A stretch of DNA of 44,829 nt from a virus: the IMG/VR virus record IMGVR_UViG_3300044293_000415, positions 1-44,829 of that record, one strand, 5' to 3'. The position numbers and the translations under genes are program-made. Positions 6,938 to 41,334 of this stretch are shown one piece after another. Every line of letters starts with the position of its first letter. Position 1 is the stretch's first letter. The notes below the pieces were generated by a model, which was not told the origin of the DNA, did not search any database, and was given only the letters and a program-made list of their open reading frames with translations.

Positions 6938-9697
6938 ATGCCTCGATTTGCCGTAACCGTGAACGACAACGGCACGCGCAAGCGTGTTGTTCTAACGGCT
7001 GATTCTCAACCAACCGAGGATCAGGTGCTCGCTGCATTACGCGCCCAATCTGAAACTTCTGCACAAACAGAAACGGCGCAAACGAATCCTGTTCAGCAGG
7101 CGGACTCGCAACTCATGCAAGCGGTAAACAGGTCGGCAGGAATTGCCGATCCGTTGCTCAATTTCGTCAAGCAGTCCCAACAGCCACCAGAAGCCCAGCA
7201 GCCTGTTTCTCAATACGTCAACCCGGCAATCGAGGGTGGGCAGGAAGTCCAGCCTCCCCCCGCTGTCGCTTCTCCAGAAGCCAAACAGCGGCTTGAGCAG
7301 GGGCTGGAAAGCATCCCTCGATATGCTGGCCCTATCGTTGCCGGGCTCGCTTCTGGTGGAATGGGGCCCGTAGCTGCTGCCGGGATAAGTGGGCTCGGTG
7401 CCATCATTGGAGAGACCGTATCACAGGTGCTGGAAAGGGTTGGTGGGTCTCGTCAGGAAATGAGCGGCAGGGAGGTCGTCGCTTCCGGCGTCCAAGGATC
7501 TGTTCCGGTCACCAGAGGAGCCGGAATTCTTCGCGGCATCGGCAATGTCGCCATGCAGACCGGCGGAGGCATGGCCGCTGAAGCCATCAGGACCGAAGGC
7601 GAAAACGTCTTGAGCGGCGGCGTCATTCCAGGGGCTATTTCTGCCGTTACAGAAAGTGCTGGAGGAGTTGCAAGGGGATTGGGTGCCCTTGCCGGTCGCG
7701 CTGCCGAAAGGGCTGTTCCGCTAGAAAAGATCGGAGTGACGCCAACTTTGGGGCAGGTTATGCCGTCAATGGCGGCTTTGGAAACAAGGGTTTCATCGCG
7801 TGCCGGGCAACAAGACCTGCGACGCGCCCTTGAACAGCAGGGGGAAAACATTTCAGCCACCGTTCGATCCCTAACTGGTCTTGAGCCACAAGGCGCGGAC
7901 AAGTTGACCCGGAGACTTCTTGAGGATCTTGGGGCGGAGGAGGCGCAAGCCGTGGCTAACGCTTCCGCCAACCTTTCCAACGCCTCCGCCATCCTCGAAA
8001 AGGTGCGCGGCACTGTTCAGGAACAAACCGCTGCCCGCGCTGTCCAAGACGCCACGCAAGCCTTTGAGCAGTCTATCCAGAACACGCTGTTCAAGGGGGC
8101 CCAACCGGGCGCGTTCCGGATCGTCAAAGCGGGTCGCAAGATCGAGTCCGTTGTTGAAGACGCCAAGAGCGCCTTTAAGGCAAAGGCTGATGACCTGTAC
8201 GCTCCGGTGCAGCCGTTCGAGAACATCGAGGGATTTGACCTTGCGCTCCGAATCGGAACGGGCCCGTCCGTCACGCAGGAGGCGGCCCGCATCTTGACCG
8301 AATATCCTCAGCTTCGGTCGGGTGGTGTTAATCCGGCATTTGCCAGCTTGGCTTCCGACATTCAGGCATTGCGTGACTCGGCAAACCCGCTTTCGCTCAA
8401 CCAGCTTCGGCAGGTTCGCGAAAAGCTGTACAACTATGCCGACCATGCCGGAGAAGCCTTCGGGACCAAGGCGCAAAGGGACATCCGGGACTTGGCCGGG
8501 AAAATAACCCAAAGCATTGACGGACAGGCTTCGACCGTCTTCGGTGCTGCCGCCAACAACGCCGCGCAAGGCGCAAAGATTGCCAAGCAGCTCAAGGAGG
8601 CTAACAAGTTTTACCGCGAATTCCGCCAGCGGTTTGACGAATACGGTGTCGCGCAGGCGTTTAAGCCTGAAACCCAAAGAACCGGGCAGATGGCTGCGAC
8701 AATGGCTTCCGAGGTCCAACGCCAAGGCATCGAAGCGCCAGCATACGACAACCTTGTTTCTCTGTTGGACGACCTTGGAAAGCGTGGAGCAAAGAATGTT
8801 CCCGCATCCAGTGATGTGGCAACGGCTGTCCGGTCATCGCTGATCGAGCCGTCTGTCAACATCAACACGGGTGACATTGACTTTGTGAAGCTGGCGGAAA
8901 CGCTCAACAATGTTGAGCGCCAATCGCCCGGTGCACTCAAGAAGCTGGGGTTTGGCTCCAAGGATCAGCTCGACAAGTTCGTGGCCTTTACGGCCAAGCT
9001 CAAGGAGAAGCCTGGACCGGAAAAACTTGCCGCCCTTCTGGACCCCAACAATCCAATAGGCATTTCTGTTGCATCTACTGCCATTGCGGATTTGCCGAAC
9101 CTTGCAGATGTCGGATCCCTTGTATCGAAGTTGGAGAAGTTGGCTGCAAGCAACCCGCAGGCCCGTGCTGGGCTTCAATCTCTTCGGGCATCCGAAATTG
9201 AACGCCTGTTGATTGAGACAACCGCATCTGGCGGACGCGGGGCACGTACTGACATTATCGGTGAACTTTCAAAGCCGGAAGTCGCAGACCGTTACCGTAC
9301 CATTCTGGGCGACAACCTGTTCAGACGAATCGTTGACGATTTCCTTCCGGGTTACAAAATGCTTTTGGAATACCGCCAAGCTGCCGGACAGGCTGGCGCT
9401 ACCGTTCGCGGTTCTGCCGAAGAACAGCTTGTTGCTGGAGCGGGCAAAGCCGTCACAAGTGCCGCTTCGGGGCAACCCGCTGCTGGCGCTTTCGGCATTG
9501 TTAAGGATCTCGTCAATCTTGGGATGTACTCGACGGCTGCCAAGCTGCTCGCTCGCGCAGGAGGCTCCACTGGTTACAAGTCCCGTGCTGATTTTATGAA
9601 GACAATCGAAGACGTTTCCAGGCGCATCGGTTCTTCAGGAAACATCACGGCGATCCAGAAATTCGCCGATTCAGGTGAGCTTCCGGAAGAGAAATAG
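6938..9697 (+). CDS. Large internal virion/ejection protein
   Basis: A 919-residue protein, the largest virion candidate. A short N-terminal domain (PRFAVTVNDNGTRKRVVLTA) is followed by a Gln/Pro linker. Next comes an amphipathic Gly/Ala segment near residues 120-165 (GPIVAGLASGGMGPVAAAG), then about 650 residues of Ala/Glu/Gln helices. There is no lytic transglycosylase motif (no clear E-S-x-x-x catalytic block), unlike T7 gp16. Last gene of the plus-strand module; it ends 7 bp before a convergent minus-strand gene with no visible terminator between them. It is most likely a DNA-ejection protein. A tape-measure protein is less likely given the lack of tail-tube genes. Confidence 0.5.
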   Translation: MPRFAVTVNDNGTRKRVVLTADSQPTEDQVLAALRAQSETSAQTETAQTNPVQQADSQLMQAVNRSAGIADPLLNFVKQSQQPPEAQQPVSQYVNPAIEGGQEVQPPPAVASPEAKQRLEQGLESIPRYAGPIVAGLASGGMGPVAAAGISGLGAIIGETVSQVLERVGGSRQEMSGREVVASGVQGSVPVTRGAGILRGIGNVAMQTGGGMAAEAIRTEGENVLSGGVIPGAISAVTESAGGVARGLGALAGRAAERAVPLEKIGVTPTLGQVMPSMAALETRVSSRAGQQDLRRALEQQGENISATVRSLTGLEPQGADKLTRRLLEDLGAEEAQAVANASANLSNASAILEKVRGTVQEQTAARAVQDATQAFEQSIQNTLFKGAQPGAFRIVKAGRKIESVVEDAKSAFKAKADDLYAPVQPFENIEGFDLALRIGTGPSVTQEAARILTEYPQLRSGGVNPAFASLASDIQALRDSANPLSLNQLRQVREKLYNYADHAGEAFGTKAQRDIRDLAGKITQSIDGQASTVFGAAANNAAQGAKIAKQLKEANKFYREFRQRFDEYGVAQAFKPETQRTGQMAATMASEVQRQGIEAPAYDNLVSLLDDLGKRGAKNVPASSDVATAVRSSLIEPSVNINTGDIDFVKLAETLNNVERQSPGALKKLGFGSKDQLDKFVAFTAKLKEKPGPEKLAALLDPNNPIGISVASTAIADLPNLADVGSLVSKLEKLAASNPQARAGLQSLRASEIERLLIETTASGGRGARTDIIGELSKPEVADRYRTILGDNLFRRIVDDFLPGYKMLLEYRQAAGQAGATVRGSAEEQLVAGAGKAVTSAASGQPAAGAFGIVKDLVNLGMYSTAAKLLARAGGSTGYKSRADFMKTIEDVSRRIGSSGNITAIQKFADSGELPEEK

Positions 9698-14747: not shown

Positions 14748-15082
14748 TCCGACACCTCGCAGGCGGCCTGAACGGAATCGACAGCAAGGCGCATGGATTG
14801 ACGCATCTCTCCATTGTCGGTCCATCGTTCCAGCTTCAGCTTGCCGATGACCAGAACGGGTGTCCCGTGCCTTACGGCCTCCATGTCCTCGGCAACGCGG
14901 CCCCACGCACACAACTCGAATTCATCGTGTGATTCCTCGTAAAGCCCCGTATCGGGGTTATGCCACCCCCTCGGCACTGAAATCACGCGCCGACAAAGCA
15001 GTGTTCCCGTGCGGGTTTCCTTCATTCGCGGATCGGTCACAAAGGCACCGAACAGCTTCCATTCATTCAATTTCACACTCAT
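14744..15082 (-). CDS. Single-stranded DNA-binding protein (OB fold)
   Basis: A 112-residue protein with OB-fold order: NEWKLFGAFVTDPRM, then RRVISVPRGW, ELCAWGRVAEDMEAVRHGTPVLVIGKL, and LERWTDNGEMRQSMRLAV. The AWGRVAE...V..G..V.V.GKL pattern is diagnostic for bacterial/phage SSB. No acidic C-terminal tip (DDIPF) is present, so it may not recruit host SSB partners. The start overlaps the helicase stop by 4 bp. Confidence 0.85.
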   Translation of the reverse strand: MSVKLNEWKLFGAFVTDPRMKETRTGTLLCRRVISVPRGWHNPDTGLYEESHDEFELCAWGRVAEDMEAVRHGTPVLVIGKLKLERWTDNGEMRQSMRLAVDSVQAACEVSE

Positions 15083-17238
15083 TTTTTGACCACGAATTTG
15101 TTACCAGTCTCGATCAGGCACCCCAGAGACCTGTAGCTGGCCATCCGTTTCTTCGCCTGACGCTCCGCTATTGGATGGAATCTGTCGGCGAAATCAAGTA
15201 TCGTCGCCAAGTTTTTTCCCGGAAAACTCCGAAGCACGCGGCTCGCACGCTGGATCGTCTTCTGCGAAGACCTCCCGCCGCTCACCATCACCAACATCTC
15301 CGCATTTGGCAGATCAAGCCCTTCGTCGGCCAAGGAAGTGGCCACGATGCACTTCAAATCTCCTGCACGGAAAGCATTCACAATCTCGCGACGCGACTTT
15401 CTGGATACGCTTGAATGCAGCAGTGCAGAACCGGGTATCTTTCGTTCGTATTCCTCGCCAAGCGTCACGCGAGGCACAAGGACGAGCCGCTGCGAATCCG
15501 GATGGCTGTTCGCATAAGCCACGCAGGCGGCGTTGCGCGTCACGTTGGCCGCAATGCCGATGTCAACGATGGACTCCCAAGCACACATCGCTTGCAGTTC
15601 CTCTTTCGGAACCCTCATGTACCGAGACCGAGCCGACATCAGCCGCTCGATATTCATGTCGATTCGCCTGTCCAGCCCCCCATCGGTGTCGTCGCGCCAG
15701 ACGAGCTTGGCGTCCGCAAGTGATTCACCGATCTCGTCGCGGCTGATCTCGAAAATCTTCGGGAACATCTCCCTCAACGCCGCATTGCGATCCACGTCCC
15801 GGTCATGCCAGGGGGTTGCATCAAGCCCAAACCAAAGACCGGGACATGAGCGTATGTTTCTGGACCAAATTTCAGCCGGTGCGTGCTTGCAGTTATGAAC
15901 AAGCACCTGTCGTCCGCCTGTTCCTACAAAGAAGTTTTCGTTTCCTTCAATCGAGAGATTGTAAACGAAATGGTCTCCCGCCATTTGCTTTCTCCACCGA
16001 GGATCTCCTTGTTGGAGAATCTCAACACTGTCCAGCCTAGATTGGACAACGCCTTTCCCTTCTTCGCGTCCCTCTCCTTCACCAGCCCTGAATTGTGAGA
16101 GGATCCGTCCACCTCGATTGCCAGCATCGTTTCTAGGCAGGCCAAATCCACCTTGTAGCAATTCGGAACACACTGAACGCCACAGCCAGCCGTTGCGATT
16201 GCGTGTTCCATTTTGAAGCCAAACTCCAAGGCGAGTTTTTTCTGGGCTTCTGTCGGCCCCCTTCCGTTGCCGCCAATTACAACCGGCCTGTGATTGATCC
16301 CCCTTAACGACCTGGAAATCTTCAATCTGGTTTCGTCCGAAACCTTCCTCGCCTTCATCCACTCCGAAATTCTTGGCCCCATTCTCTTGTTTGTTTCCGA
16401 CATCCGCTCTGAACTCATTTTTGAAACCATCAAATCCCTGCATTTCTCGCTGCAATAAGCACGACCGCGACGAAATGCATCCAGACTCTGGTAAGACGGA
16501 TTCAGGTTTGAGCACTCCACCTGAATTGAGCACCAAGCGCAAACCGACTGAACACGCCTCCTTCGCTGATTCCGAAAATCCGCGAAGCATTCCGAGCAGA
16601 TTGGACGCCTTGTTTTTGAAAAATGACCACCGCGTTCGATTCCAGTTTTGCAGACACGACAGCATTCCATTTTCATAAGGTGGAATGGTAAGCAGTGATG
16701 CCCCGGCGTCCAGCGATAATGCTGGCGAGTACGTTCCATCGTTCCAAAACGGATGATTTGGAGTGGAGAAAACCTGTGTGCCGGAATAGGAAACGACGCA
16801 TAGTGGGCCGTTGTGTCGTGTCTTGAAGACATTCAAAACGCGCCTTTTCTCTACAAGGCCAGTTTTGTGATTGAACGAATCAACCATGTCGCCTTTTTTA
16901 ACCCTGCTGATTTGAATGCCAGACACCACTGTTTCTGGCGGAAAGCATTCATCGACTACCAGGAAGTCGCAGTCGCTGAATGTCACACTTTCGTGGGGGC
17001 AGCGCACTGTCACTCTGTCCAATATGGATGCCCTTCCGAGCGCAATCCTCGCCTGGTCGCAGGTGTCGAGCGTTGGCGCAAGCCATCCAGCCTTTGTGCC
17101 GACAGCCAGTTCCAGGTGGTGTTTCAGGATGTTTGCAGCAATCACCGTCTTGCCGCTTCCTGCCGGAGCAATGATTAATCCGCCACCGGAAGTCTTTGCC
17201 CACTCAACCGCAGCCCGCTGGTAGGAACGAAGTGTCAT
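15079..17238 (-). CDS. SF2 DNA helicase interrupted by an intein
   Basis: A 719-codon frame. Extein residues 1-97 and 450-719 form a DEAD/ResIII-type SF2 helicase: APAGSGKT (Walker A, about 24-31), VVDE|CKH (motif II), GLDATPW (471-477), ATSLADEGLDLP (633-644) and QRASRVLR (663-670, motif VI). Residues 98-449 are a complete intein beginning with Cys98 and ending His448-Asn449 before Cys450. Removing it restores DECKHAPAEIW, a DEAH-like box. The mature helicase would be about 367 residues. It probably acts in branch migration or replication restart with the adjacent SSB and RuvC-like protein. The inserted region also encodes a separate endonuclease in another frame. Confidence 0.9.
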   Translation of the reverse strand: MTLRSYQRAAVEWAKTSGGGLIIAPAGSGKTVIAANILKHHLELAVGTKAGWLAPTLDTCDQARIALGRASILDRVTVRCPHESVTFSDCDFLVVDECFPPETVVSGIQISRVKKGDMVDSFNHKTGLVEKRRVLNVFKTRHNGPLCVVSYSGTQVFSTPNHPFWNDGTYSPALSLDAGASLLTIPPYENGMLSCLQNWNRTRWSFFKNKASNLLGMLRGFSESAKEACSVGLRLVLNSGGVLKPESVLPESGCISSRSCLLQREMQGFDGFKNEFRADVGNKQENGAKNFGVDEGEEGFGRNQIEDFQVVKGDQSQAGCNWRQRKGADRSPEKTRLGVWLQNGTRNRNGWLWRSVCSELLQGGFGLPRNDAGNRGGRILSQFRAGEGEGREEGKGVVQSRLDSVEILQQGDPRWRKQMAGDHFVYNLSIEGNENFFVGTGGRQVLVHNCKHAPAEIWSRNIRSCPGLWFGLDATPWHDRDVDRNAALREMFPKIFEISRDEIGESLADAKLVWRDDTDGGLDRRIDMNIERLMSARSRYMRVPKEELQAMCAWESIVDIGIAANVTRNAACVAYANSHPDSQRLVLVPRVTLGEEYERKIPGSALLHSSVSRKSRREIVNAFRAGDLKCIVATSLADEGLDLPNAEMLVMVSGGRSSQKTIQRASRVLRSFPGKNLATILDFADRFHPIAERQAKKRMASYRSLGCLIETGNKFVVKK
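15892..16947 (-). mobile_element. Intein in helicase motif II
   Basis: A 352-residue Hint-type intein. Block A is CFPPETVVSG at the N-terminus. Block B, GTQVFSTPNHPFW, contains the T-x-x-H motif. Block F is VYNLSIEGNENFFVG, and block G is VLVHN followed by Cys+1. All splicing residues (Cys1, block-B His, penultimate His, terminal Asn, Cys+1) are present, so it should splice. In-frame residues between blocks B and F do not look like a DOD or HNH endonuclease: they are Gly/Arg/Gln/Asn-rich with no motif. That stretch is the alternate-frame reading of the nested nuclease gene. Confidence 0.9.
15924..16676 (-). CDS. Nested Vsr/DUF559-like homing endonuclease in alternate frame of intein
   Basis: A 250-residue protein encoded wholly inside the intein, one base out of phase with it. 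It has zinc knuckles C6xxC9/C27xxC30 and C46xxC49/C75xxxC79. A NUMOD3-like helix follows at about 101-126 (ISEWMKARKVSDETRLKISR). A Vsr/PD-(D/E)XK-type nuclease core comes last: KVD177, EVDGSSH (188-194), RD203, KK, GWTVLRFSN (214-222). The codons before its stop double as intein block F. The first plausible ATG is 16676 or 16670, with only a weak ribosome-binding site. It would cut intein-free alleles of the helicase gene to drive homing. The frame extends upstream without a stop to 16832, but the conserved part starts at the zinc finger. Confidence 0.85.
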   Translation of the reverse strand: MKMECCRVCKTGIERGGHFSKTRRPICSECFADFRNQRRRRVQSVCAWCSIQVECSNLNPSYQSLDAFRRGRAYCSEKCRDLMVSKMSSERMSETNKRMGPRISEWMKARKVSDETRLKISRSLRGINHRPVVIGGNGRGPTEAQKKLALEFGFKMEHAIATAGCGVQCVPNCYKVDLACLETMLAIEVDGSSHNSGLVKERDAKKGKALSNLGWTVLRFSNKEILGGESKWRETISFTISRLKETKTSL

Positions 17239-24155: not shown

Positions 24156-25340
24156 TTAAAGGGGGTTCAAAAGTTCTGCGAAAAGTGTCCGAAACGCGAT
24201 CTCCGCAGTGGCCGGGACTACCCCGTTGCCGAGGAGTCGGAGTTCGTCGGTTCGATTGTCACCGGCGACGTACAGCTCGGCATGGTCCAGCCGACTGGAA
24301 GCCCCATAAGCGTCTCCACCCAGCGGGGGTTGAGTTTCGCGTTGTTGATTCCCATCTTCGCGCTCATTTCCCTGCGGAATTGGCCGCTCATTTGTCCGTG
24401 GGACTTTTCCCCAAGTCCGACAAGCGGTGTCGGCCATTGCTGAATTTGAATTGCCAGCGGAGTTCCCGACCCATTCCCATTCCGATGCTTCTCCTTGTTC
24501 AAGGCTTGGCGCCTGTTCCAACTCTCTAGCGTCTCCATTTCGTTTGGATTCGATGCACACGGCGTGGCCCACTGCTTGACCTGTGCCGTCAGCGGCATCG
24601 TCGAGACGTCGCCTCTCCTTTGTCTCTCGGCCCATGTTTCGGGATTCTCGTCCGTCGTCTTTCCGGCCCTCGGTGTCGCCCACTGCTTTGACAGTCCTTG
24701 GTGGCTCCCATTCGTGCTGTGGTTGTCCCGGGCGGGATGGCCAACATGGACTGCTCTGGCTAGCAGACAGTTCACCGGGACATTTGCGCAGGATTGTGCT
24801 GTGCCATCCTTCCAGTCCCGCGCTGTTGCAGTGGGCCAGGATGAAGACCCGCTTCCGCTGGTGCGGAGCGCCGACTTCAGACGCGCTGAATATGCCCCAC
24901 GTCGTTCTGTAACCCAGTCTTCCCAGGTCCTCAATGACGTCGCGCAACCCCAAGCTGATATGTCCTTCGACGTTCTCGAAGAAGCAGAGCCTAGGTCGCA
25001 TGGCAGCAATTCCATCTGCGATCCAAGGCCAGAGGTGGCGGGGGTCGTCCTTGCCAGCCCGCTTGCCGGCTGCGCTGAATGGCTGGCAGGGGTAACCTCC
25101 AGTGAGGATGTCCACGCCGCCACGAAACGATCCCCAAGGGAAGGTTTTAAGATCCGGCCAGATAGGTGCCGGGTCCATGAGTCCCGCTTCCATTTTTGCG
25201 ACCAAGTTCGCAATGGCAAACGCTTCGATCTCACAAAGAGCGACTGAGCGCAGATTTGGGACGACTCGCTTGAGTCCAAGCTCAATGCCTCCGTATCCAG
25301 CGCACAAGCCGACGTGTGTAACTGCCTTGGTAGAATCCAT
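24156..25340 (-). CDS. C5-cytosine DNA methyltransferase, large (alpha-like) frame
   Basis: A 394-residue frame. LCAGYGGIELGLKR (motif I), GGYPCQPFSAAGKRAG with the catalytic PCQ at 84-86 (IV), FENVEGH (VI, ENV 122-124), GAPHQRKRVFILA (VIII) and RLLGNGVVPATAEIAFRTL (X) are all present. Motif IX and a TRD-like region are not convincing here: the segment from 175 to 355 is low-complexity. Motif IX lies instead in an overlapping frame. The enzyme would transfer methyl from SAM to cytosine C5. This is the two-polypeptide arrangement known from M.EcoHK31I. Confidence 0.85.
   Translation of the reverse strand: MDSTKAVTHVGLCAGYGGIELGLKRVVPNLRSVALCEIEAFAIANLVAKMEAGLMDPAPIWPDLKTFPWGSFRGGVDILTGGYPCQPFSAAGKRAGKDDPRHLWPWIADGIAAMRPRLCFFENVEGHISLGLRDVIEDLGRLGYRTTWGIFSASEVGAPHQRKRVFILAHCNSAGLEGWHSTILRKCPGELSASQSSPCWPSRPGQPQHEWEPPRTVKAVGDTEGRKDDGRESRNMGRETKERRRLDDAADGTGQAVGHAVCIESKRNGDARELEQAPSLEQGEASEWEWVGNSAGNSNSAMADTACRTWGKVPRTNERPIPQGNEREDGNQQRETQPPLGGDAYGASSRLDHAELYVAGDNRTDELRLLGNGVVPATAEIAFRTLFAELLNPL
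24218..25015 (-). CDS. C5-methyltransferase motif-IX (beta-like) frame, overlapping
   Basis: An open frame inside the alpha gene, shifted by one base pair relative to it. It carries SGSGSSSWPTATARDWKDG, repeats of W-x-T-P (QWATPRAG, QWATPCAS, QWPTPLVG), and LNPRWVETLMGLPVGWT (24284-24334), which is C5-methyltransferase motif IX. In M.EcoHK31I and M.EaeI the beta polypeptide begins inside the alpha gene in another frame and supplies motif IX. Start is uncertain: ATG 25015 gives 265 residues, and the frame is open up to 25345. Ribosome binding is weak. It stops just inside the region encoding alpha motif X. Confidence 0.65.
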   Translation of the reverse strand: MELLPCDLGSASSRTSKDISAWGCATSLRTWEDWVTERRGAYSARLKSALRTSGSGSSSWPTATARDWKDGTAQSCANVPVNCLLARAVHVGHPARDNHSTNGSHQGLSKQWATPRAGKTTDENPETWAERQRRGDVSTMPLTAQVKQWATPCASNPNEMETLESWNRRQALNKEKHRNGNGSGTPLAIQIQQWPTPLVGLGEKSHGQMSGQFRREMSAKMGINNAKLNPRWVETLMGLPVGWTMPSCTSPVTIEPTNSDSSATG

Positions 25341-25435
25341 GTCATTGTTTTCCGTTTTTGTTGTTCTGAATTTTCACCACATACTCATTCGCTTCCTGTA
25401 ATCCACTTGGAACGACGTAATCACATTGTCTGCTT

Positions 25436-39087: not shown

Positions 39088-41334
39088 TTATTGGCGCATC
39101 ATCTGGGATTCCGCCTGCGCGTTGCTGCGATTGATGTCCGACGTTGTCTTTGCCGTCTTCCGCACGATGTCGGCCTCCGCCTTGGCGTTGTCCCGCTGAA
39201 TCTTCGCCAACGCTTGCGCGTTGTCCCGCTGGATCGCCGCCTGCGTCTCCGCATTCAGGATCATGGTTTCGGGATCCATGCCGGATTGAATCGCCTGAAC
39301 ACGCTGCTGTGCCTGAGCCGACTGCATTTGCTCTTCAATCATGCGCCCAAGCTCAACGGTCACCTGCTGAACCTCACGAAGCTGCGCGACATACTGTTTC
39401 ACCATGTCCGCATTCGCCGGGTTCGCCTGCAACCGCTCCAGATGGCCCTGAGAATGCATCGTGATCCCTTGCAGGAAAAGTGCAATTTCCTGCGGATTTC
39501 CTCCTTGCTGCAATGACGCCGCCGCCGCGTTTGCGGCACCGATGTGGGTGTTCAGGTGTACCGTGTGATCCTGCGTATCCGTCACCACGGCGACGTTGCC
39601 CTGCTTCAGCGACGTGTGCTCAAGGACCGCAAGCGCGGCCTGGTCCTGTTCACGCGCAGACGGCTGGCTTACGGGCAGGTAGCGGTCCACCATCTGCTGT
39701 CCGACCTGTGCAGCAACGTAGTCTTTCAGGAGGTTCATCTTGCCGCTTTCCGGAAGCGTCCCCAAGAGTCCGAGCAGGTTGCCAAGCAACTGCTGCTTCG
39801 CGAATTGCGAGCCTTGGCCGACCGTGCGGGTTGCCTGAACCAGATCCACCTTCACCAAGGCTTCCTTGGGAACGCCGCGCTCAAAGCATCGGCGCTGGAA
39901 TTCGAGCGCCTCGCGTTCCGACCGGGTGGTTGGAGTAAGTGATTGGTTCGATGCGCGTTTGAAACGCTCCTCAAAGAAAGAATCGAGTTGGGTGTAATAC
40001 CGTGAAAGCTGGGTTTTGCCGATTGCGCTCTGCTGGGCAATGATGGCCTGGATTTCGGTGGCGGTGCGCGGGTTGCCCTCAGGCTTGTTCAGCGTCTGGC
40101 GATACTGCGAAAGGTTGTTCTGCAACACCCCTTCAATGTCGGCGTTGACCGCCATTGGAGCGTCAAGAACGCCCGAAATGTTCTGTTGAACCACGTCGTA
40201 ATCCGGGGGGACGATGGCGTATGGCCCCTGCTGTACCACGCTGGTCTTGTTCAGGGCGTTAGGATTGAGCGGCTTGAACAGGATCTGTGATCGTGCGAAT
40301 GCCGCATCGACCATAGCACAACGGAGCCGGTTCTTCAGTTCCATCGCCCTCAGCATCTTGATGCCAAGCCCCTTCACGCCGTAATGCTGCCCGTCGCCAC
40401 GGTCGTAATACATGGGGTGAATCACCTGTTCCCACCGATTGAATCGGCCAATTTTCCGATACAGGAACTGATCCCCGCCACGTTCGTCGATGATCGCGTG
40501 ACTGATCTTCCCGTCGAATTCCCGGTAGAAAACGTGGGTCAACAGGATCACGTCGCAACGCGCCGTGTAACTGATGTCATTTGTCCGAAGCTGCTGCTGG
40601 AACCATTCCCAGTTGTACTGTTGTCCGGAGCGGTAGGGTTCGGGCATCGCTTGACGGATACTGGCCTGAACGGCCTTGACATCCCAACCAACCGCCGAGG
40701 CAGCCTCGCTGTCGCGGATCTTCTCGTACATGTCGTCCACGCCCATGCGGACCCGTACGCAAGCCACCTTCCAGTCCGAGACGTTGGACTTGGTTCCGTC
40801 CGGGACCAACAGGTCTCCCGCCATGATGGACTTGCAGCGCCAATCGGTGGCATCCTCGAATATCATGGGGCCGCATCCGATCAGCACCATCTCCCGCTGG
40901 GAGAGCTGCATTAGGTAATCGAAATCGCGGTCCTGCTTCTGCAAGCGGTCGAACTCTTCGGTGATGATCTTCGACCACTCGTCCTTCTTGTCCGGATCGG
41001 TTCCGAAATCAGTGTGAACCGTCGCGTATGTGGGCACCTCGGCGAACACGTCATAAAACGCCGATTGTGCCGTCATCAGGAACGCCTCGGAATCCCGGAA
41101 GTTGACGTTGGTTCGGTACGACTGATTGTTTTTCCGCAGTTCCGCAGGGTTGTATGGCGGATTACCGTCAACCAACCCCCGCAGCTTGGCCCGCGTCTCG
41201 TTCCGGAGTTGGTCGGCGGTAACTAGCTTCGTCAGAATGTCTCGCGCTGACTGGGCGTCTTGCAGCCTCGTTTCTGGCGGCTTTCCGCTGGCCGAGATCG
41301 TCTCCAGCGGAATCTGCGTCATCGTTCCAGTCAT
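39088..41334 (-). CDS. Portal protein
   Basis: A 748-residue protein. NNQSYRTNVNFRDSEAFLMT, FYREFDGKISHAIIDERGG and DRGDGQHYGVKGLGIKML occur in the clip/stem region, with later helical residues TATEIQAIIAQQSAIGKTQL. The C-terminal 200 residues are an Ala/Gln coiled coil (barrel-like). Portals of short-tailed phages such as P22 are this size and have a C-terminal helical barrel. It lies two genes after the large terminase in the same operon; stop-start overlaps by 4 bp with the zinc protein gene. Confidence 0.8.
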   Translation of the reverse strand: MTGTMTQIPLETISASGKPPETRLQDAQSARDILTKLVTADQLRNETRAKLRGLVDGNPPYNPAELRKNNQSYRTNVNFRDSEAFLMTAQSAFYDVFAEVPTYATVHTDFGTDPDKKDEWSKIITEEFDRLQKQDRDFDYLMQLSQREMVLIGCGPMIFEDATDWRCKSIMAGDLLVPDGTKSNVSDWKVACVRVRMGVDDMYEKIRDSEAASAVGWDVKAVQASIRQAMPEPYRSGQQYNWEWFQQQLRTNDISYTARCDVILLTHVFYREFDGKISHAIIDERGGDQFLYRKIGRFNRWEQVIHPMYYDRGDGQHYGVKGLGIKMLRAMELKNRLRCAMVDAAFARSQILFKPLNPNALNKTSVVQQGPYAIVPPDYDVVQQNISGVLDAPMAVNADIEGVLQNNLSQYRQTLNKPEGNPRTATEIQAIIAQQSAIGKTQLSRYYTQLDSFFEERFKRASNQSLTPTTRSEREALEFQRRCFERGVPKEALVKVDLVQATRTVGQGSQFAKQQLLGNLLGLLGTLPESGKMNLLKDYVAAQVGQQMVDRYLPVSQPSAREQDQAALAVLEHTSLKQGNVAVVTDTQDHTVHLNTHIGAANAAAASLQQGGNPQEIALFLQGITMHSQGHLERLQANPANADMVKQYVAQLREVQQVTVELGRMIEEQMQSAQAQQRVQAIQSGMDPETMILNAETQAAIQRDNAQALAKIQRDNAKAEADIVRKTAKTTSDINRSNAQAESQMMRQ

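Follow-up and report, generated by a model that had tools for sequence, protein, structure and literature searches.

In textbook homing inteins, nuclease and intein share one reading frame, and the EDxHD homing endonuclease I-Bth0305I is encoded by a group I intron. In the fractured genes described by Dassa and colleagues in 2009 (NAR 37:2560; cited in PMC12350094), a freestanding Vsr-like/EDxHD nuclease reportedly lies between the two halves of a split intein, in phage genes of DNA metabolism. A further arrangement is known from actinobacteriophages, in which insertions in methylase genes (the ShiLan domain and Pacc40) hide HNH endonucleases (Arsenault, Gosselin, Gogarten 2025, PMC11855218).

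We analyzed a viral contig in IMG/VR (record IMGVR_UViG_3300044293_000415), of which the whole 44,829-nucleotide stretch is referred to here as the window. An earlier note, made from the letters of the window, had read a helicase gene as carrying an intact intein and, out of frame within it, a separately encoded Vsr-type nuclease. A check of open reading frames, motifs, and profile matches confirmed the coordinates given there for both elements (Table 1). The helicase ORF (15079-17238(-)) matches Helicase_C (9.5e-14) and a PHROG DNA helicase (2.7e-33), and is open through the entire intein. All residues of a class 1 Hint intein were found (C1, T62, H65, HN, and the +1 Cys): the Cys1 codon is at 16945-16947, block B reads STPNHPF, the C-terminus ends in VLVHN at 15892, and the +1 Cys is encoded at 15889-15891. 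Pfam and NCBIfam profiles recovered the two Hint/intein halves in the helicase frame (TIGR01443 above its cut-off, PF14890 with an E-value of 7.5e-5 that falls short of the curated one), and a PDB sequence search with the intein returned only weak Hint matches. Rfam gave no match to a group I or group II intron RNA at the locus.

Table 1. Coordinates of the helicase gene, its intein, and the nested nuclease in the window
Feature	Position	Strand	Details
Host gene: SF2 (ResIII/Helicase_C) phage DNA helicase with intein	15079..17238	(-)	719 aa precursor
Intein, 352 aa	15892..16947	(-)	Inserted at Walker B between DE and CKH; Cys1, TxxH, HN, +1 Cys
Intein N-terminal splicing half (Hint, blocks A-B)	16675..16947	(-)	AlphaFold pLDDT 96-98, residues 1-90
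Intein C-terminal splicing half (blocks F-G), residues ~301-352	15892..16047	(-)	AlphaFold pLDDT 93-98; TIGR01443
Intein-frame linker, residues ~92-300	16048..16674	(-)	No domain; predicted disordered; open, not conserved as protein
Nested EDxHD/DUF559 homing endonuclease gene, 250 aa	15924..16676	(-)	+1 frame relative to intein; two zinc fingers, NUMOD3, Vsr-like nuclease domain
Nuclease upstream extension, alternative start ATG 16832	16677..16832	(-)	Not conserved; homologues start at the position of 16676/16670
Last 16 nuclease codons and stop, overlapping intein block F	15924..15974	(-)	Seen in the sequence

The full ORF in the nuclease frame (15924-16832(-), 302 codons) is in the +1 frame relative to helicase and intein. 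The nuclease starts at ATG 16676 (or 16670), stops at 15924-15926, and matches DUF559 in Pfam (7e-13), with a weak NUMOD3 match just under the cut-off. Block F of the intein C-half is double-coded with the nuclease C-terminus, and the sharing of the last 16 nuclease codons, which the earlier note had pointed out, can be read directly from the sequence. Its statement that the intein frame has no endonuclease domain between the blocks likewise agrees with the linker, in which no domain was recognized and which is predicted to be disordered. In AlphaFold2 models, the nuclease reached a mean pLDDT of 91.6, and its best PDB fold match was the catalytic domain of I-Bth0305I (probability 1.00, with an E-value of only 6e-3). 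The intein model had pLDDT values of 93-98 at residues 1-90 and 301-352 and of 42-63 between them, and its best Foldseek matches were intein/Hint structures. The models thus predict an intein in which the Hint halves alone fold around a disordered middle.

Elsewhere in the window, a C5-methyltransferase ORF (24156-25340(-)) is overlapped over almost its full length by a 375-codon ORF on the same strand in another frame (24218-25345(-)), which had no Pfam match and is probably a shadow ORF. Large phage ORFs without a Pfam match are also present at 6938-9697, 39088-41334, and 59-1873.

A tblastn search with the nuclease against 50,697 phage records matched 43 of them. Among the matches listed (30 places), all were within genes annotated as helicase, P-loop NTPase, coil-containing protein, or hypothetical protein, and none had the nuclease annotated as a gene of its own. 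The eight phage matches that were fetched (Pseudomonas MR14; Vibrio CP-T1, 104E43.1, 159E43-1b, K391, 1.194.O, and 1.088.O; Corynebacterium phi673) all had the nuclease in the +1 frame within an intact intein ORF. Further scans with the nuclease, covering viral contigs and one genome per bacterial or archaeal species, added dozens more loci, from bins labeled Verrucomicrobia, Elusimicrobia, Cyanobacteria, Pseudomonadota, Riflebacteria, Dependentiae, Firmicutes, Bacteroides, Polyangiaceae, and Planctomycetota. The related intein and nuclease occurred together at 126 fetched loci (87 nonredundant), with the nuclease stop usually 4-22 codons before the intein C-terminus. Across these loci, the nuclease was in the +1 frame in 126/126 and in frame in none, and the intein frame had no stops.

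To avoid selecting on the nuclease, viral contigs were also searched with the intein N-half alone. The 80 loci obtained comprised 72 with a full +1 nuclease, five with a shortened one, three without any (mini-inteins of 130-138 aa), and none in frame. In-frame homologues were found neither when sought with the nuclease nor when sought with the intein N-half. The two-frame layout that the earlier note had proposed to look for in homologues was thus found at 126 loci, none of them with the in-frame nuclease that would have spoken against it; with the phase constant and no in-frame homologue, the core reading of an intact intein and a separately encoded nuclease is well supported. The same note had considered a base-calling error. 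A sequencing or assembly frameshift is excluded by recurrence in many independent genomes: a single-base error does not account for the same +1 phase in phages sequenced by different groups, in metagenomes, and in MAGs.

Most insertions into helicases were at DE^C(H), and a few were at a second site, DEAH^C.KN. Two loci (L057:3001-5394 and L058:3397-5508, from bins labeled Clostridia and Lachnospiraceae) had the nested-nuclease intein in the Walker B motif of a DnaX-like clamp-loader gene. No close relative of the window was present in the data searched, and plasmids yielded generic DUF559 genes only. Fractured (split) versions of the nested-nuclease intein were not seen among the loci examined; two candidates for such a version, L013 and L015, proved to be freestanding nucleases beside intein-free helicases.

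For the two long open frames, the earlier note had given a chance of roughly 6 per million. That figure is a rough one; the conclusion drawn from it holds, as codon permutation and conservation in relatives rule out a chance double-open frame. Synonymous shuffling of the nuclease codons in the window introduced a mean of 17.6 intein-frame stops and gave no stop-free sequence (0/2000), and shuffling of the intein codons introduced a mean of 4.0 nuclease-frame stops (P = 0.0035). Over 81 loci, permutation led us to expect ~647 intein-frame stops (~8 per locus), and none was observed. The reverse permutation gave 289 expected nuclease-frame stops, in a set defined by open nuclease ORFs. Stops in the third frame of the overlap DNA numbered 2-35 per locus. 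Chance is untenable because the double frame is conserved across relatives.

Selection in the two frames, a comparison that the earlier note had called for, was estimated from related pairs elsewhere in the family. Within the overlap, the ratio of observed to expected nonsynonymous differences was 0.13-0.81 in the nuclease frame versus 1.1-1.45 in the intein frame, and differences fell mainly at nuclease third positions; in the intein N-half outside the overlap, the ratio for the same pairs was 0.18-0.68. This pattern of substitution argues that the nuclease is kept as a protein, and that the intein frame across the overlap is kept only as an open ORF. The residues on which function would depend are well conserved. 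In the nuclease, the zinc-finger CxxC cysteines were invariant (alignment of 57); E188, D190, H194, and D203, which we take to be the EDxHD motif residues, were conserved in 79-81/81; and D177 was also invariant or nearly so. In the intein, conservation was 87/87 for C1, 80/81 for T62, 81/81 for H65, and 84/87 for HN.

Sites resembling a Shine-Dalgarno sequence (AAGGAG, GAGGT, AGGAGG) precede the nested start in many loci, those of Pseudomonas phage MR14 and Vibrio phage K391 among them, ranking in the top 5% of background positions in 11/41, and the signal relative to synonymous shuffles was modest (Wilcoxon P = 0.009). The nuclease start in the window has no such site, and a strong one is likewise missing from most genes of the contig, the helicase among them. 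Internal initiation of the nuclease is the reading we favor.

Evidence for mobility came from Vibrio phages related to K391, in which a single helicase site (Walker B, DE^C) is polymorphic. An empty allele was found in phages 234P10 and 141O35-1; a nuclease-free mini-intein in K389, K453, and 268E42.1; and the nested-nuclease intein in K391, 1.194.O, and 1.088.O. The exteins of the empty and mini-intein alleles are ~92%-94% identical to K391 at the DNA level. Intein-free alleles, which the earlier note had suggested looking for, thus exist in Vibrio phages; the only intein-free homologue of the window's own helicase was that of the distant Verrucomicrobia phage P8625. Nuclease, intein, and extein distances were correlated (Mantel r 0.50-0.55), consistent with a composite of intein and nuclease that travels together and mostly stays in related genes. 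The two freestanding nucleases (L013:3355-3996 and L015:3983-4627) each lie immediately upstream of an intein-free SF2 helicase gene, the arrangement expected of an intergenic homing endonuclease. The L015 helicase (L015:4934-4960, IMGVR_UViG_3300031867_000701) has a 1-base length change exactly at DE^C that breaks the frame, which could have been left by repair after nuclease cutting or could be an assembly error. Two further loci (L165:201-3332, from Vibrio phage PS65A.1, and L168) have two inteins in one helicase, a mini-intein at Walker B and another intein at Walker A, the latter with an in-frame LAGLIDADG in L165 and shortened in L168.

Given the anatomy, conservation, selection, and polymorphic insertion demonstrated above, we consider it very probable that the locus combines a mobile intein with a homing endonuclease gene overprinted on it; its splicing, internal initiation, cleavage, and homing are what we infer. 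The helicase would be translated in frame 0 across the entire insert, and the two Hint halves would assemble around a disordered loop of ~200 residues and self-excise, and splicing would rejoin the helicase within Walker B (DE^C). Separate translation of the same mRNA, begun at an internal start codon in the +1 frame, would yield the nuclease. The predicted targets of its cutting are Walker-B alleles without the intein, and recombination would then copy intein and nuclease together into the break. Selection acts on the nuclease protein and on the openness of the intein frame, leaving the looped-out intein-frame peptide unconstrained.

A different route to the nuclease would be a programmed +1 shift of the ribosome close to where the intein N-half ends, yielding a fusion of helicaseN, inteinN, and nuclease. 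This would fit the +1 phase of all 126 loci and the opening of the nuclease ORF near the end of the Hint N-half in most of them. The fixed phase is explained just as well by descent of the loci from a single ancestor, however, because a change of phase needs two compensating indels. The existence of same-length freestanding homologues (L013, L015) and of the Shine-Dalgarno-like sites before the start codon in many loci also argues against frameshifting, and no shared slippery sequence was noticed in an unsystematic look around the starts; we regard it as quite unlikely. Somewhat less unlikely, yet still improbable, is that intein and nested nuclease are real and that the nuclease serves the phage beyond its own homing, for example by cutting the helicase genes of rival phages. 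It is intact in 72/80 intein-selected loci, which seems high if homing were the sole pressure, but the polymorphic empty and mini-intein alleles fit ordinary homing.

The remaining two accounts are less likely still. If the intein were really split, as in a fractured gene, its halves would trans-splice around a freestanding nuclease gene and the open intein frame would be incidental. The nuclease type is reportedly that of the split-intein fractured genes, but the absence of intein-frame stops from all 126 loci, against the ~8 expected per locus, makes this very improbable, the more so as the freestanding relatives do carry stops in the intein phase (29 in L013 and 31 in L015). Nothing beyond the unusual layout itself suggests that the nuclease is a degenerate relic, dead since indels moved it out of an originally shared frame, or that sequencing error produced the shift. 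This account is contradicted by the recurrence of the layout in genomes of isolate phages that different groups sequenced, and at the level of the family it is refuted by purifying selection on the nuclease frame, constant phase, and conserved catalytic residues, leaving it scarcely credible for the window.

Returning to the overprinted mobile intein, its relatives make up an out-of-frame nuclease family that spans phages and prokaryotic genome bins of about ten phyla or more and occupies helicase, SNF2-type, and DnaX genes. It clearly exemplifies, for prokaryotic viruses, two genes that overlap on one strand over a long, conserved stretch and whose products can both be identified. The layout may plausibly stand midway between bifunctional inteins and fractured split-intein genes, and it is a reason to re-examine inteins that have been called endonuclease-free or described with an unknown linker domain. 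A broader interpretation, which we offer tentatively and hold to be possible but doubtful, is that these loci form an old and widespread class in which the overlap is itself an adaptation: the host frame would police the nuclease against frameshifts, and the nuclease would be made independently of splicing. Such a class would bridge ordinary HEN-inteins and fractured split-intein genes, with a single stop in the linker as a first step from the former to the latter. Unexplained linkers of other inteins may also hide such genes.

The earlier note knew of no described case of this layout. Our literature search, conducted largely without subscription papers, turned up no splicing-type intein described with its nuclease out of frame; the ShiLan insertions are a partial precedent, and the layout belongs to a widespread family and is not a single case. 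Like ShiLan/Pacc40 (PMC11855218), the present loci have a homing-type endonuclease out of frame in an insertion that is open in the host frame, an in-frame product without recognized function, and a freestanding homologue upstream of an uninvaded host gene. The two differ in that a full Hint intein here surrounds an EDxHD nuclease, whereas the ShiLan/Pacc40 enzymes are HNH endonucleases with no splicing domain, and in that the hosts here are Walker-B ATPase genes of many phyla rather than methylase genes of actinobacteriophages.

With fractured genes, the loci share the nuclease superfamily, its position between the intein N- and C-halves, and the setting in phage DNA-metabolism genes; here, by contrast, the host gene is unbroken, and the intein frame is one continuous ORF with which the nuclease overlaps in the +1 frame. 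The match to I-Bth0305I and other EDxHD homing endonucleases extends to fold and to NUMOD-type DNA-binding modules, but I-Bth0305I is intron-encoded and no intron RNA was found here. Taken alone, the intein frame resembles a HEN-less mini-intein whose Hint domain has a long loop. True mini-inteins (130-150 aa) are found at this insertion site in L105, L110, L112, L164, and L167; they lack the nuclease that is encoded here by the loop DNA in a second frame. As in canonical bifunctional (LAGLIDADG) inteins, a Hint domain is combined with a homing endonuclease between blocks B and F; there the two form an in-frame fusion polypeptide, whereas here the nuclease is a separate overlapping gene, without exception in the +1 frame. 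Vibrio phage PS65A.1, with its in-frame LAGLIDADG intein at Walker A of the same gene, provides a within-gene contrast of the two architectures.
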